Origin: Candidatus Chloroploca asiatica
Lineage (GTDB): Bacteria; Chloroflexota; Chloroflexia; Chloroflexales; Chloroflexaceae
DNA length: 40,169 nucleotides
Direction of reading: 5' to 3'
NCBI RefSeq assembly: GCF_002532075.1
Contig: NZ_LYXE01000116.1
Span: forward strand, 1 to 40,169
Within the stretch, counting starts at the first letter, position 1. Every line of letters starts with the position of its first letter. The notes under the pieces were generated by a model. That model ran no database searches and had not been told where the DNA came from. It saw only the letters and a list, made by a program, of their open reading frames with translations. This document shows, piece by piece, positions 7,028 through 40,169 of this stretch. The position numbers and the translations under genes were made by a program.

Positions 7028-7289
7028 ACCATACCGTCCAGAGGAAAAAATTACCTCGGCATGCCGTGAATGGGTCAGTTTCGAACCTGCAAGCGCAGGT
7101 GGGTGCCCGCCTGTGAGTATCTGCGGCCCGCCGCATAACTCAACTCGTTAGAGCAAAGCTCCCATCGAAACAGTGTTGGCTCAAAACACATACCCACCCA
7201 CGGGCAGCCGAGGATACCCTGATCCTACCACGACCGCGCACGTTACGCAAGTAGGGCCGAAGCACCCCTCTTTTCTTTTTGCCCCCAAA
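7028..7289. other. Intergenic region upstream of holA
   Basis: No gene was recognised in these 262 bases. A stretch near 7070-7090 looks like a tRNA T-loop (GTTTCGAACCTGC), but no acceptor or anticodon arm can be folded around it. A small GAGC-AAA-GCTC hairpin lies near 7151-7161. The holA promoter must lie here, but no near-consensus pair was found. Confidence 0.5.
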
Positions 7290-19427: not shown

Positions 19428-20537
19428 ATGTCCGTGCAGACTGGCATTGTGATGCTTAACCTCGGGGGACCAGCGACCCTCGATGAAGTCGGCCCTTTTC
19501 TCGTCCGCCTTTTTGCTGACCGCGAAATTATTCAGTTGCCCCTGCAAGCCTGGCTCGGCCCCTTCATTGCCCGGCGACGCACCGCTGCCGTGCAAGAGAA
19601 TTATCGCCTGATTGGCGGTGGTTCACCGATTTTGCGCTGGACTACTATCCAGGGCGAAGGTATGATCCGCTGGCTCGACCGGCTCTCGCCAGCGACGGCA
19701 CCTCATCGGTTTTATGTCGCTTTTCGTTATGCGCCTCCCTTTAGCGAAGATGCCCTGCGTCAGATGCAGGCCGATGGGGTGAAACGCGCGGTTGCCTTTA
19801 CCCAGTATCCCCAGTTTTCCTGCGCCACCACCGGCTCAAGCCTCAACGAGCTCTGGCGGGCAGCGCGGCGGCTTGGCCTTGGCAATGCGTTCTCTTGGAG
19901 TATGATTGACCGCTGGCCGACCCATCCCGGTTTTATCGAGGCAATGACCCGTAGCGTGCAGATCGGGCTTGAACAGTTTCCTGCCGCTGAACGCCATAAC
20001 GTGCTCTTGCTCTTTAGCGCCCACTCGTTGCCCCTCAAGATCATTGATCGTGGCGACCCGTATCCTCAGGAGATCGGTGCGAGTGTGCAGGCGGTGATGG
20101 TGCAACTCGGGTTTGCCTACGAATATCTGCTCGCCTACCAATCGGCGGTTGGGCCAGTGCGCTGGCTTGGGCCACAGACCGAGCAGGTGATCAAGCAACT
20201 GGGCGCGCAGGGGCGGCGCAACGTTCTCGTTGTCCCGCTTGCCTTCACGAGCGACCACATTGAAACGCTCGCCGAGATTGACCATGAATACGGCGAATTA
20301 GCTCACCGCGCCGGCATCACCAACTTCAAACGTGCCCCCGCCCTCAACGACGATGAAAACTTTCAACGTGCCCTCGCTGATCTTGTCGCTGAACACCTCG
20401 CAAGCGGGCTCAACCACTCGCGCCAGTATCCTCTGCGCTGCCCCGGATGTACCAGTGATCAGTGTCGCAACCTGCTCAATCCGGTTGCCTCGCCGGAATC
20501 CGTTGCGCTCGCGCACGACCGTCAGCTGCGAATGTAG
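19428..20537 (+). CDS. hemH: Ferrochelatase with [2Fe-2S] cysteine set
   Basis: This 369-residue enzyme inserts Fe(II) into porphyrin at the end of haem synthesis. The N-terminal VMLNLGGPATLDEVGPFL and the catalytic FSAHSLP motif (His199) are clear, and Glu283 in ETLAEIDHEYG matches the conserved acidic residue of the active site. The C-terminus carries C338-x2-C341-x4-C346. With Cys132 in YPQFSCATTGSS this reproduces the four-cysteine pattern of [2Fe-2S] ferrochelatases such as the human enzyme. ATG 19428 has only a weak GGTAG upstream. No other haem-pathway gene is adjacent. Confidence 0.93.
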   Translation: MSVQTGIVMLNLGGPATLDEVGPFLVRLFADREIIQLPLQAWLGPFIARRRTAAVQENYRLIGGGSPILRWTTIQGEGMIRWLDRLSPATAPHRFYVAFRYAPPFSEDALRQMQADGVKRAVAFTQYPQFSCATTGSSLNELWRAARRLGLGNAFSWSMIDRWPTHPGFIEAMTRSVQIGLEQFPAAERHNVLLLFSAHSLPLKIIDRGDPYPQEIGASVQAVMVQLGFAYEYLLAYQSAVGPVRWLGPQTEQVIKQLGAQGRRNVLVVPLAFTSDHIETLAEIDHEYGELAHRAGITNFKRAPALNDDENFQRALADLVAEHLASGLNHSRQYPLRCPGCTSDQCRNLLNPVASPESVALAHDRQLRM

Positions 20538-25773: not shown

Positions 25774-26271
25774 TCAGGGCGCATCTTCAGCCCAGAGCAT
25801 GCCGACGCGCCCGCCGCCCAGGGCCATGATGCCATTATCGAAGGGGGCTTCGCTCAATGAACGCCAGCCAGTTATCGCTTCTCCCGCGAGATCGTAGATT
25901 GCCACATCGCCGCTGATGGCCCCGTTGGTAAAGTAACGACTTCCCTGGGGAAAGAGCGCCAGGAATTGGCTCGCCAACCCGTCGGCCTTTTCGCGGGGCA
26001 TCACTTCGGTCGGATACGCCAGCTCGCCGACGATCAGATGGGTCACGAGTTTGGCGGCAATCCGCCGAGGTACCTCGATCCACGCTGCGCCAAGGCCGCG
26101 CAAGCCCGCCGCCTCAGCGAGTGCATCGAGCGCCGCACTCGCCGGGCCCGGCGTGGCCTCAGCGAGACGGGCCACCAGCAAACTCAGTGGATAGCTCGTG
26201 GCCCGTGCATGGTCGAGCGCATCGGCCAGTTCCATCAATGCTGGATCTTCATCAGGGAGTAACATCACCAT
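25774..26271 (-). CDS. Hypothetical protein, 165 aa
   Basis: No family is recognised. The product is acidic and Ala/Leu-rich. The first half is helical (ALMELADALDHARATSY, AALDALAEAAGLRGLG), and the second half contains VPRRIAAKLVTHLIVGELAYP and a beta-rich end with GDVAIYDLAGEAITGWRSL. It has no signal peptide or membrane segment. ATG 26271 was preferred over the in-frame TTG 26274; AAAGG lies upstream. It sits about 70 bases downstream of a terminator that ends the tiny unit at 26345-26537. Readthrough from that promoter could therefore control it. Confidence 0.6.
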   Translation of the reverse strand: MVMLLPDEDPALMELADALDHARATSYPLSLLVARLAEATPGPASAALDALAEAAGLRGLGAAWIEVPRRIAAKLVTHLIVGELAYPTEVMPREKADGLASQFLALFPQGSRYFTNGAISGDVAIYDLAGEAITGWRSLSEAPFDNGIMALGGGRVGMLWAEDAP

Positions 26272-26344: not shown

Positions 26345-26365
26345 AGCCCCTGCATCGCAGGGGCT
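26345..26365 (-). terminator. Intrinsic terminator of the 15-codon unit
   Basis: AGCCCCTGC and GCAGGGGCT (9 bp) flank a 3-nt loop. Read on the minus strand the hairpin is followed by TCTTTTATG, a fair U-tract. Confidence 0.8.
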
Positions 26366-26404
26366 CCTTCAGGTCCTGGAGGGGTATCACCAGACTGGTT
26401 GAAC

Positions 26405-26452
26405 CTAACGGGCCTCACCAGCAGTGATACCCAGACGCTTATGATCACTCAT
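26405..26452 (-). CDS. Tiny ORF of 15 codons with very strong expression signals
   Basis: ATG 26452 to TAG 26405-26407 encodes MSDHKRLGITAGEAR, a hydrophilic, charged peptide with no run of one amino acid. It is preceded by AAGGAGGTGAT, matching the 16S anti-Shine-Dalgarno over 11 bases with AGGAGG 8 bases from ATG. A near-consensus promoter lies further upstream and an intrinsic terminator about 40 bases after the stop, so the transcript would be about 155-165 nt. It could be a leader peptide for 25774-26271, a small protein, or a small RNA whose Shine-Dalgarno-like segment titrates ribosomes. Peptide expression is inferred. Confidence 0.55.
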   Translation of the reverse strand: MSDHKRLGITAGEAR

Positions 26453-26456
26453 GGGC

Positions 26457-26467
26457 ATCACCTCCTT
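26457..26467 (-). promoter_or_regulatory. Near-perfect Shine-Dalgarno of the tiny ORF
   Basis: On the minus strand AAGGAGGTGAT complements the 16S 3' end over 11 nt, the longest match noticed in the window. The spacing to ATG 26452 is near optimal. Confidence 0.75.
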
Positions 26468-26508
26468 TACGCCTGAACGGCATTTCTTGTGAAACTTCTG
26501 ACAAGAGT

Positions 26509-26537
26509 ACTATACCTGAGACGTTTGTCCGTGTCAA
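26509..26537 (-). promoter_or_regulatory. Near-consensus promoter of the tiny unit
   Basis: TTGACA (26537-26532), 17 bp, TATAGT (26514-26509) on the minus strand. The predicted start is near 26502, giving a leader of about 50 nt. Confidence 0.8.
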
Positions 26538-26568
26538 GAGTAAAAAGCGGGAATTTTTTCCTGTCCTG

Positions 26569-26599
26569 GTCAACGAGCCAGCTTTGCTGGCTCGTTGAC
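26569..26599. repeat. Hairpin between divergent promoters
   Basis: 14-bp arms (26569-26582 with 26586-26599) enclose TTT, with imperfect extension by CCTGTCC/AGGGCAGG. The apex is CCAGCAAAGCTGG on the minus strand. A TATACT at 26659-26664 is a possible -10 for the gene at 26705, with TTGTCA 20 bp upstream. Confidence 0.65.
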
Positions 26600-26704: not shown

Positions 26705-28369
26705 ATGGCTCAGCAGAGTGATTATGATGTTATTGTCGTTGGCGGTGGTCACAATGGGTTGACCACTGCTGGCTATCTGGCGAAGGCTGGCAAACGGGTG
26801 CTAGTCGTTGAACGGCGTGAGATTGTTGGGGGTGCCGTCTGTACCGAAGAAGTTATTCCAGGGTACAAGATTGATGTTGGTTCGTCGGCCCATATTATGA
26901 TCCACCTCACCCCGATTGTGAAGGATCTGGAACTTGAGCGTTATGGGCTCGAATATATTCAGATGGATCCCTTTGCGTTCTTTCCCTTGCCCGATGGAAG
27001 TGGTTCGATTAGCTTTTATCGCGATACCGAAAAAACAATCCAGAGCATCGCCTCAGTCTCGCCTCGCGATGCCGAGGCCTACCGTCGGTTTCTTGCCTAT
27101 TGGACACCGCTCAATGAAGCGGTTTTTGATGTGTTTCTCAATCCCCCGTCGGCGGCCCGCCTCTTTTCGACGGTTGGTTCGGCAACCTCACAGTTGCCGT
27201 TGGCCGACCGCAATCCGTTTGAAGTGACGCGGCGCTTCTTTACGAGCTATGCTCAGTTGATCAATGAGACCTTTGAGAGCGAGCCGATGCGGGCGGCGAT
27301 GACTTGGCTTGCCGCCCAGAGTGGCCCACCACCTGATGAGATCGGGGCGGGTGACTTTTTTGGCTGGCACGCGATGATGCATACCTGTGGTGCAGCCCAT
27401 CCGCGCGGTGGGAGCGGTGAGTTGACCCAGGCGATGGCCCGATCCTTCAAGAGCGCTGGCGGCGATCTCGTCCTTGGTGCCCCTGTGCGCCGGATTATTG
27501 TCAAGAATGGGCAGGTACAAGGGATCGAAACGATTGATGGGCAGCGTTATTCGGCCCCCATCGTTGTCTCCAATGCCCATGTTCTGACCACTATGCTCGA
27601 TCTGGTTGGCCCCGAACATCTTTCCTCTACCCTCGTGCATCGTCTGCGCAATATCCGCATCGGCAATGGCTTTGGGATGACTGTTCGCTGTGCCGCCGAA
27701 GAGTTGCCCGATTACTTGGCAGCTCCAAGCGGCGGTCAGCCCCACGAGAGCCACCACGGGTTGCAATTGCTCAGCCCTTCGATGGATTATGTCCGTCGTG
27801 CCTATGAGGATTATCTGCGTGGTCAACCCGCCCACGATCCAGCCGTCATTGCGATGACCTTCTCGGCGATCGATCCCGATGTTGCCCCTCCTGGCAAACA
27901 CACCGTCTTCCTGTGGGCGCAGTATTTTCCCTATGCCCTCAGCGATGGACGCCATTGGGACGATGTGCGCGAAGAGGCTGCCGACTCGATCCTCGAGGTG
28001 CTCTATCGGTATGCTCCCAATATGCGCGGCAAGATCATTGATCGTTTCATTCAGAGCCCGCTTGATCTTGAGCGTCGCATCGGGTTGCTCAAGGGCAATG
28101 TGATGCACGTTGAGATGAGTTTTGATCAGATGTTCTTCTTTCGCCCGCTCCCTGAGTTGGCCGAATACCGCACGCCTATCAAGGGGCTCTATCTGACCGG
28201 GGCCAGCACACATCCGGGCGGGGGTGTCTTTGGGGCCAGTGGCTCGAATACGGCTCGCGTTGTCTTGCGCGACGTTCACCAGCGCACCTGGGTGCCGTTG
28301 GCCGCCGGCGCCGGCGCCGGTGCGCTCGCCGCCGGGCTCTGGGCGGCCAGCCGCATGCGGCGCCCGTAG
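26705..28369 (+). CDS. CrtO-like carotenoid oxidoreductase (phytoene desaturase superfamily)
   Basis: This 554-residue FAD protein has an N-terminal dinucleotide motif VVGGGHNGLTTAGYLAKAG and ERREIVGGAVCTEE. The central HPRGGSGELTQAMA and the C-terminal MSFDQMFFFRPLPELAEY, then YLTGASTHPGGGVFGASG, are very similar to remembered cyanobacterial CrtO beta-carotene ketolase. Vertebrate PYROXD2-type proteins are related, so function is not certain. A ketolase acting on gamma- or beta-carotene would suit a phototrophic Chloroflexota. The last 20 residues form an Ala/Gly-rich hydrophobic helix, perhaps a membrane anchor, ending in RMRRP. ATG 26705 has a weak GAAAG site. Confidence 0.75.
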   Translation: MAQQSDYDVIVVGGGHNGLTTAGYLAKAGKRVLVVERREIVGGAVCTEEVIPGYKIDVGSSAHIMIHLTPIVKDLELERYGLEYIQMDPFAFFPLPDGSGSISFYRDTEKTIQSIASVSPRDAEAYRRFLAYWTPLNEAVFDVFLNPPSAARLFSTVGSATSQLPLADRNPFEVTRRFFTSYAQLINETFESEPMRAAMTWLAAQSGPPPDEIGAGDFFGWHAMMHTCGAAHPRGGSGELTQAMARSFKSAGGDLVLGAPVRRIIVKNGQVQGIETIDGQRYSAPIVVSNAHVLTTMLDLVGPEHLSSTLVHRLRNIRIGNGFGMTVRCAAEELPDYLAAPSGGQPHESHHGLQLLSPSMDYVRRAYEDYLRGQPAHDPAVIAMTFSAIDPDVAPPGKHTVFLWAQYFPYALSDGRHWDDVREEAADSILEVLYRYAPNMRGKIIDRFIQSPLDLERRIGLLKGNVMHVEMSFDQMFFFRPLPELAEYRTPIKGLYLTGASTHPGGGVFGASGSNTARVVLRDVHQRTWVPLAAGAGAGALAAGLWAASRMRRP

Positions 28370-39814: not shown

Positions 39815-39843
39815 TTGACAAAATCTAAACCGGGTGCTATACT
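39815..39843 (+). promoter_or_regulatory. rRNA operon promoter
   Basis: TTGACA (39815-39820), 17 bp, TATACT (39838-39843), followed by an AC-rich start region near 39850. No second promoter was recognised before the 16S gene. Confidence 0.85.
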
Positions 39844-40094: not shown

Positions 40095-40169
40095 TCAACG
40101 CAGAGTTTGATCCTGGCTCAGGACGAACGCTGGCGGCGTGCCTAATGCATGCAAGTCGCACGCAGGGTG
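40095..40169 (+). rRNA. rrs: 16S ribosomal RNA, 5' end (partial)
   Basis: AGAGTTTGATCCTGGCTCAG at 40102-40121 is the universal 5' primer region (E. coli position 8), so the mature end is near 40095. It continues with GACGAACGCTGGCGGCGTGC and TAATGCATGCAAGTCG and is cut by the window edge. Upstream, CTGACC-GTAA-GGTCAG forms a small leader hairpin near 40069-40084. Confidence 0.97.

Follow-up and report, generated by a model that had tools for sequence, protein, structure and literature searches.

A conserved tiny RNA of Chloroflexota suggests an undescribed kind of translation-controlled RNA

The comparisons described below suggest that a tiny RNA conserved in Chloroflexota represents an undescribed kind of translation-controlled RNA. 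In the window, that is, the whole stretch of 40,169 nucleotides analysed here (contig NZ_LYXE01000116.1 of Candidatus Chloroploca asiatica), it is encoded by a complete small expression unit on the minus strand (26537-26337), consisting of a promoter, a small hairpin, the extended Shine-Dalgarno sequence AAAGGAGGTGAT, an ATG, 15 codons, a stop codon, and a terminator; the unit is below the size that gene finders detect, and no Rfam family matches it. Our preferred explanation, which we hold to be moderately probable, is that this free-standing mini-mRNA of ~165 nt is a translation-gated RNA switch, whose state depends on and reports the loading of ribosomes, with an output probably exerted in trans and the peptide being secondary. 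The anatomy itself is well supported by comparison of the aligned copies: its own promoter, Shine-Dalgarno sequence, start codon, a short frame running through a segment B, a stop codon near a segment C, a terminator, and two predicted helices. Every element named by an earlier, sequence-only reading (promoter, Shine-Dalgarno sequence, 15-codon ORF, and terminator, all on the minus strand) is present, whereas the switch formed by three segments (A, B, and C) and the small hairpin before the Shine-Dalgarno sequence had been missed. The features are the following.

26537-26509, minus strand: promoter, TTGACA (26537-26532), 17-nt spacer, TATAGT (26514-26509); read in the sequence and conserved in the copies.
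26482-26470, minus strand: small hairpin TGCC-GTTCA-GGCG, directly before the Shine-Dalgarno sequence; 88.8% of cells paired in 58 Chloroflexales copies.
26468-26457, minus strand: extended Shine-Dalgarno sequence AAAGGAGGTGAT, predicted to be complementary to ~12 nt (11-12) of the 16S tail.
26462-26453, minus strand: segment A (GGTGATGCCC), the 3' part of the Shine-Dalgarno sequence plus the spacer, pairing with B in 580 of 580 A-B cells.
26452-26405, minus strand: ORF MSDHKRLGITAGEAR, 15 codons and stop (ATG 26452-26450, TAG 26407-26405), with start and frame kept.
26432-26423, minus strand: segment B (GGGTATCACT), within the ORF, partner of A or C according to the alignment and covariation.
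26391-26382, minus strand: segment C (GGTGATACCC), past the stop codon, a rival of A for B according to B-C covariation.
26369-26337, minus strand: intrinsic terminator AAGGAGCCCCTGC-GAT-GCAGGGGCTTCTT followed by TTATG, hairpin at 26369-26341; read in the sequence and found in 60 of 67 distinct copies.

The RNA is predicted to start at about 26502, and in the window copy the terminator hairpin (26369-26341) and segment C (26391-26382) do not overlap. A long, near-perfect inverted repeat (GTCAACGAGCCAGC, AAA, GCTGGCTCGTTGAC; 26568-26599, minus strand) lies between the promoter and the divergent gene at 26705.

Taken singly, neither the promoter nor the terminator is beyond chance. Between positions 20001 and 40000 of the window, there are 12 promoter-like sites versus 8.5 (sd 2.8) in shuffled sequences, the top score, 11 of 12, being shared by the promoter of the unit and a site at 39815, and 22 terminator-like sites versus 18.6 in shuffles, the unit's own terminator being absent from the scan list. 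A 16S rRNA gene (40095-40169, plus strand) that runs off the window end starts ~250 bases downstream of the other top-scoring site (39815-39843, plus strand; TTGACA-17-TATACT with TG before the -10 element), which is probably the rRNA promoter. The sequence AAGGAGGTGAT at 3-9 nt upstream of an ATG occurs only once in the 5.84-Mb genome, at the unit, and the 16S tail in one relative (L075) ends in GGATCACCTCCTTT, so that 12 nt of the Shine-Dalgarno sequence can pair with the tail. The fold of the RNA has a z value of -5.29 against shuffles, which, like the single occurrence of AAGGAGGTGAT at this spacing, exceeds chance. The case for the unit rests on its conservation.

This conservation, the lack of which had been named beforehand as a refuting observation, is evident in close relatives. 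A DNA similarity search found the unit in 72 of the 82 genomes of the order at E <= 1, the weak rows being no better than chance. A covariance model (R1), built from 58 copies of that similarity-search set and hence not independent of them, matched 73 of the 82 genomes at E <= 0.01, and 54 of the 56 good genomes, mostly in single copy (two strong R1 copies in G052, G061, and G070 only). The 58 copies form an alignment (A2) derived from 70 loci through a 63-row alignment (A1, without L040 at a contig end, L059 and L062 with odd pairing or spacing, and duplicates) by removal of five Herpetosiphonaceae rows with misaligned B. Upstream of the distinct Chloroflexales copies, a promoter scoring at least 10 of 12 is found in 65 of 67 (versus 0.7% of shuffles), and a terminator follows in 60 of 67 (versus 7 of 134 shuffles). 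Among 400 sampled genomes of the phylum, R1 matched 70, namely 40 of the order, 13 of the 14 from the same class outside the order, and 17 others. A second model (R2), built from 23 Anaerolineae-type copies, matched 61 of 400, of which 44 were new beyond R1; the union is 114 of 400, given that both samples are apparently identical and that matches near E 0.01 may be due to chance. In a scripted check of the architecture, 18 of 20 loci passed (20 of the 30 R1-matched genomes outside the order), as did 27 of the 30 best R2 loci, with a script that misses L146 and L149 (GGGGG for GGAGG, L149 being unit-like by eye) and the off-centre L250.

A search of the genome collection with the pattern AAGGAGGTGATGC-N15-45-GCATCACC (the genomes partly overlapping those of the other searches) gave 72 stretches, 48 of which have an ORF of 13-19 codons. 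All 48 have a B-C helix score of at least 6.0 and 45 have a terminator; 47 belong to Chloroflexota (Roseiflexus, Kouleothrix, Sphaerobacter, Caldilineaceae, Ardenticatenaceae, Anaerolineales, and others), and the remaining one to a Bdellovibrionales MAG (L176). The other 24 stretches are without such an ORF (two have chance ORFs of 4 and 22 codons), two of them have a terminator-like site, and their best B-C score, 7.0, overlaps the lowest of the 48. Since the pattern demands eight A-B pairs, the A-B pairing is not independent evidence here, whereas the ORF, the B-C helix, and the terminator are. In the class of the Bdellovibrionales MAG, R1 matches 11 of 76 genomes at E <= 0.1 and 6 of 76 at E <= 0.01, and a strict pattern matches 1 of 78. 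Nine of ten of those loci examined show a near-full Shine-Dalgarno sequence, mostly followed by GCCCATG, and an ORF of 13-21 codons, and most have, by eye, a small hairpin directly before the Shine-Dalgarno sequence; in L270 and L271 the A-B and B-C helices are convincing, whereas L269, L272, and L276 have plausible ones and the remaining loci weak ones. These Bdellovibrionota look-alikes may reflect either common descent or convergence; small RNAs of B. bacteriovorus are described in PMC3627812. In samples from two other phyla, those of two genomes that had turned up as coding noise, R1 (E <= 0.01) matched 4 of 246 genomes in one and 3 of 247 in the other, and these are taken as background, because the scripted check found the unit architecture in none of the seven loci, nor in one aeromonad match. 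The presence of the unit in almost all good genomes of the order and its scattered occurrence across the phylum, together with the look-alikes in another phylum, point to strong and old selection on it.

The aligned copies suggest that two conserved helices compete within the RNA. In A2 (A in columns 26-35, B in 68-77, C in 113-122), all 580 A-B cells are paired; A is nearly constant, whereas every change in B preserves the pairing, mostly through G-U, and the three third-codon positions within B are pyrimidines in 174 of 174 cells. The covariation score of the structure with A-B was reached by 3 of 500 shuffles, a control that is weak because A hardly varies; the support for A-B in the alignment is the absence of any breaking change, the pyrimidines in B included. 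In several Herpetosiphonaceae (outside A2), A and B are changed jointly at the helix end (GCTA with TAGC), and in L059 and L062 the pairing or spacing differs. For B-C, 94.8% of cells are paired and five of the ten pairs are changed on both sides, giving 60 double-changed cells versus 16.6 (sd 7.4) in shuffles (reached in 0 of 500) and 1-13 cells in slid controls; the mid-helix pair 71-119 is broken in 16 of 58 copies. The Anaerolineae-type copies have a longer B, whose 3' half faces A and whose 5' half faces C, the halves overlapping, and RNAalifold on their alignment alone picked B-C, with double changes in 6 of 16 pairs. In these copies (L169-L268), a conserved GCCATCCTA or TATCYY stretch precedes the Shine-Dalgarno sequence, at the place occupied in Chloroflexales by the TGCC-GGCA hairpin, and is weakly paired with GGAGGTG by RNAalifold.

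As B is common to both, A-B and B-C are mutually exclusive. When the sequence is truncated before C, all 70 predicted folds have B paired with A; in the full-length folds, the partner of B is A in 18 of 70 and lies downstream in 49 (B was placed 3 nt off, by a tie, in three Herpetosiphon rows of the truncation folds). Between the A-blocked and C-blocked states, the mean difference in predicted energy is 0.5 kcal/mol (sd 3.3; 65 rows, without L040, L062, and duplicates); the two lie within 5 kcal/mol of each other in 55 of 65 rows, and B-C is the lower in 25. Thus, neither state is clearly the lower one, as expected of a switch. These predictions are for 37 C, and several hosts of the unit are presumably thermophiles.

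The reading frame is kept as well. All 70 copies have ATG as the start codon, and 68 have an ORF of 12-17 codons; L020 and L030 have lost the usual stop codon, giving ORFs of 21 and 24 codons, the latter continuing through C. The distance from ATG to B is 17, 20, 23, or 26 nt in 69 of 70, even though this stretch forms the loop in the A-B fold, and a stop codon lies 15 nt past B in 59 of 70. Within Chloroflexales, the part of the ORF before B has a pN/pS of 0.40 and the part after it 0.46, compared with 0.9 for B itself; these values are pooled from 82 overlapping close pairs that are not independent, and are partly shaped by RNA pairing. We read these data as probable selection for a ribosome that passes B and stops near C, the peptide itself being selected weakly or locally. 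The peptide changes completely between classes, with its length and C-terminus varying, and B is read as GC-ATC-ACC in Chloroflexales versus GCA-TCA-CC in Caldilineaceae and Anaerolineales; accordingly, what matters most is probably something other than the product itself. The suggestion that the unit encodes a small protein thus stands as regards the kept start, stop, and frame and the low pN/pS outside B, but not as regards a peptide common to the classes. The serine codons before B (A2 columns 39-67) comprise 80 AGT, 6 AGC, and no TCN, and AGTAGTAAGCGTA recurs in copies of other classes (L218, L234, and L241); this may reflect either a sequence constraint beyond the peptide or the sensing of one tRNA.

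A role as a leader peptide attenuating the downstream ORF at about 25774-26271, also proposed by the sequence-only reading, is highly improbable. That ORF is close to the unit and on the same strand in the window, but among the 36 loci with long flanks its family adjoins the unit in only two (that of the window and that of another genome of the genus), and the terminator, which follows C and has no strand in common with the switch, stands between them. Neighbours differ in other clades, with SecF-like genes near the unit in Caldilineaceae (names read from translations). The varying neighbours and the terminator after the unit argue against its being a leader of this ORF. In 18 of the 36 loci (e.g., L075, L083, and L084), from several families of the order, the gene next upstream, on the strand of the unit, encodes a LysM lipoprotein-like protein. 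Its absence beside the unit in the window and in L071, L072, L073, and L099 makes it look like an old address, with the neighbour lost in the window's genus, rather than a partner. A link to rRNA was likewise discarded: 23S and 16S genes lie beside the L075 copy, whereas the other nine scanned loci (L091 ending soon after the element) have no rRNA at gathering. No match to the unit was found among 72,556 plasmid records.

With no downstream gene in common, the output of the unit would probably be exerted in trans. In the predicted mechanism, A-B would form first during transcription, hiding the ribosome-binding site, and, once C has been made, B-C would displace A and open it. A ribosome loaded on A would melt B while translating; at the stop codon, B would re-emerge behind it and close on A unless a new ribosome is already there, in which case B would pair with C. 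The state of the RNA would in this way report how readily ribosomes load, and the candidates for the output in trans are the conformation itself, its stability, or the occupied ribosomes. The values of pN/pS below 1 outside B leave room, in the codon comparison, for a useful peptide as well. The best supported of the three possibilities raised by the sequence-only reading (small protein, leader peptide, or RNA acting through its Shine-Dalgarno-like segment) is the RNA engaging ribosomes, now with the addition of two competing conserved helices predicted to hide and free the site. More tentatively, we consider it possible that this RNA class, occurring in at least two phyla, has its own conformation as the product and, through A, B, and C, senses the speed or quality with which 30S subunits with an intact 16S tail load, relaying this in trans as a ribosome gauge. 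If true, such a gauge of ribosome loading would give bacteria a novel means of reading translation capacity by RNA alone.

Several other explanations share part of this evidence. Unlikely, though the most probable of these, is a dual-function small RNA that pairs in trans with mRNAs (through B mimicking the 16S tail, through C, or through the start-codon loop), the ORF tuning its stability or adding a peptide. It would agree with the free-standing nature of the unit, with its own promoter and terminator and no common neighbour, and with the part of the coding loop that is nearly fixed at the nucleotide level, as seen in the AGT serine codons before B; B and C, however, vary freely while pairing with each other, which is not the behaviour of a seed. 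The kept start, stop, and frame, along with the pN/pS values outside B, could also be accounted for if the RNA were the mRNA of a functional micropeptide of 13-19 amino acids, with the structure regulating its amount, but a peptide that is not conserved between classes, has B in a different frame, and varies in length and C-terminus makes this rather improbable. We regard as improbable, too, a ribosome trap, in which 30S or 70S particles are retained on the RNA by the over-strong Shine-Dalgarno sequence together with the start codon and the short ORF, so that translation capacity is reduced or stored, and the helices do no more than regulate access. The genome's single full-length Shine-Dalgarno sequence and the strong, conserved promoter would suit it, yet a pure trap needs neither a frame kept through B nor a stop codon near C. 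A type I toxin mRNA with a hidden Shine-Dalgarno sequence deserves almost no credence: metastable hairpins hiding this site have been proposed for such mRNAs (PMC6733600), but the listed peptides contain, by eye, no membrane-length hydrophobic stretch, and a consensus scan, which cannot exclude one, gave no plus-strand promoter-like site in the unit.

The unit can be compared with catalogued systems. In the window, Rfam 15 gave only the 6S RNA (7048-7218, minus strand, 58.9 bits) and 16S at gathering, both elsewhere than the unit, and sub-threshold matches up to E 10 are at chance level only (best E 0.064, on the other strand); 11 loci with diverse copies likewise gave no Rfam 15 match at gathering. 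Among the listed matches of searches in the open-access literature, at most 20 papers each, there was no description of the unit. Leader-peptide attenuators of the trp and erm type have a short translated ORF and mutually exclusive hairpins. The unit apparently resembles them in its short ORF, with start, stop, and frame kept, and in its mutually exclusive helices. Unlike them, it has no regulated gene downstream (the ORF family lies beside it in 2 of 36 loci and the neighbours vary), its terminator is a separate hairpin with no strand in common with the switch in the window copy, and it has no common run of regulatory codons. Dual-function small RNAs with a small ORF are exemplified by SgrS and SR1. 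Coding sRNAs are described in PMC5521070 as free-standing small transcripts with a short ORF and a strong Shine-Dalgarno sequence. As a predicted free-standing small transcript with these same two elements, the unit is like SgrS, SR1, and the coding sRNAs, but differs from them all by the overlap of its ORF with the switch and by a peptide that is not conserved between classes.

In the type I toxin mRNA AapA3 (PMC6733600), the Shine-Dalgarno sequence is hidden by hairpins, one of them in the ORF, that are proposed to form during transcription, and the short ORF of the unit with its Shine-Dalgarno sequence hidden by the predicted A-B helix is similar to what is described there. In contrast to mRNAs of the AapA3 type, the unit has a peptide that is not toxin-like by eye, has no antisense promoter-like site listed, and occurs in 54 of the 56 good genomes of the order. 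The unit would work somewhat like the attenuators and the metastable toxin mRNAs of PMC6733600, but lacks defining features of both. Finally, extended Shine-Dalgarno sequences in Staphylococcus aureus, which pair with the 16S tail beyond GGAGG towards the start codon, are reported for many mRNAs (PMC13009471); the same extended pairing is predicted for the unit, here at one site in the genome tested and inside a switch.
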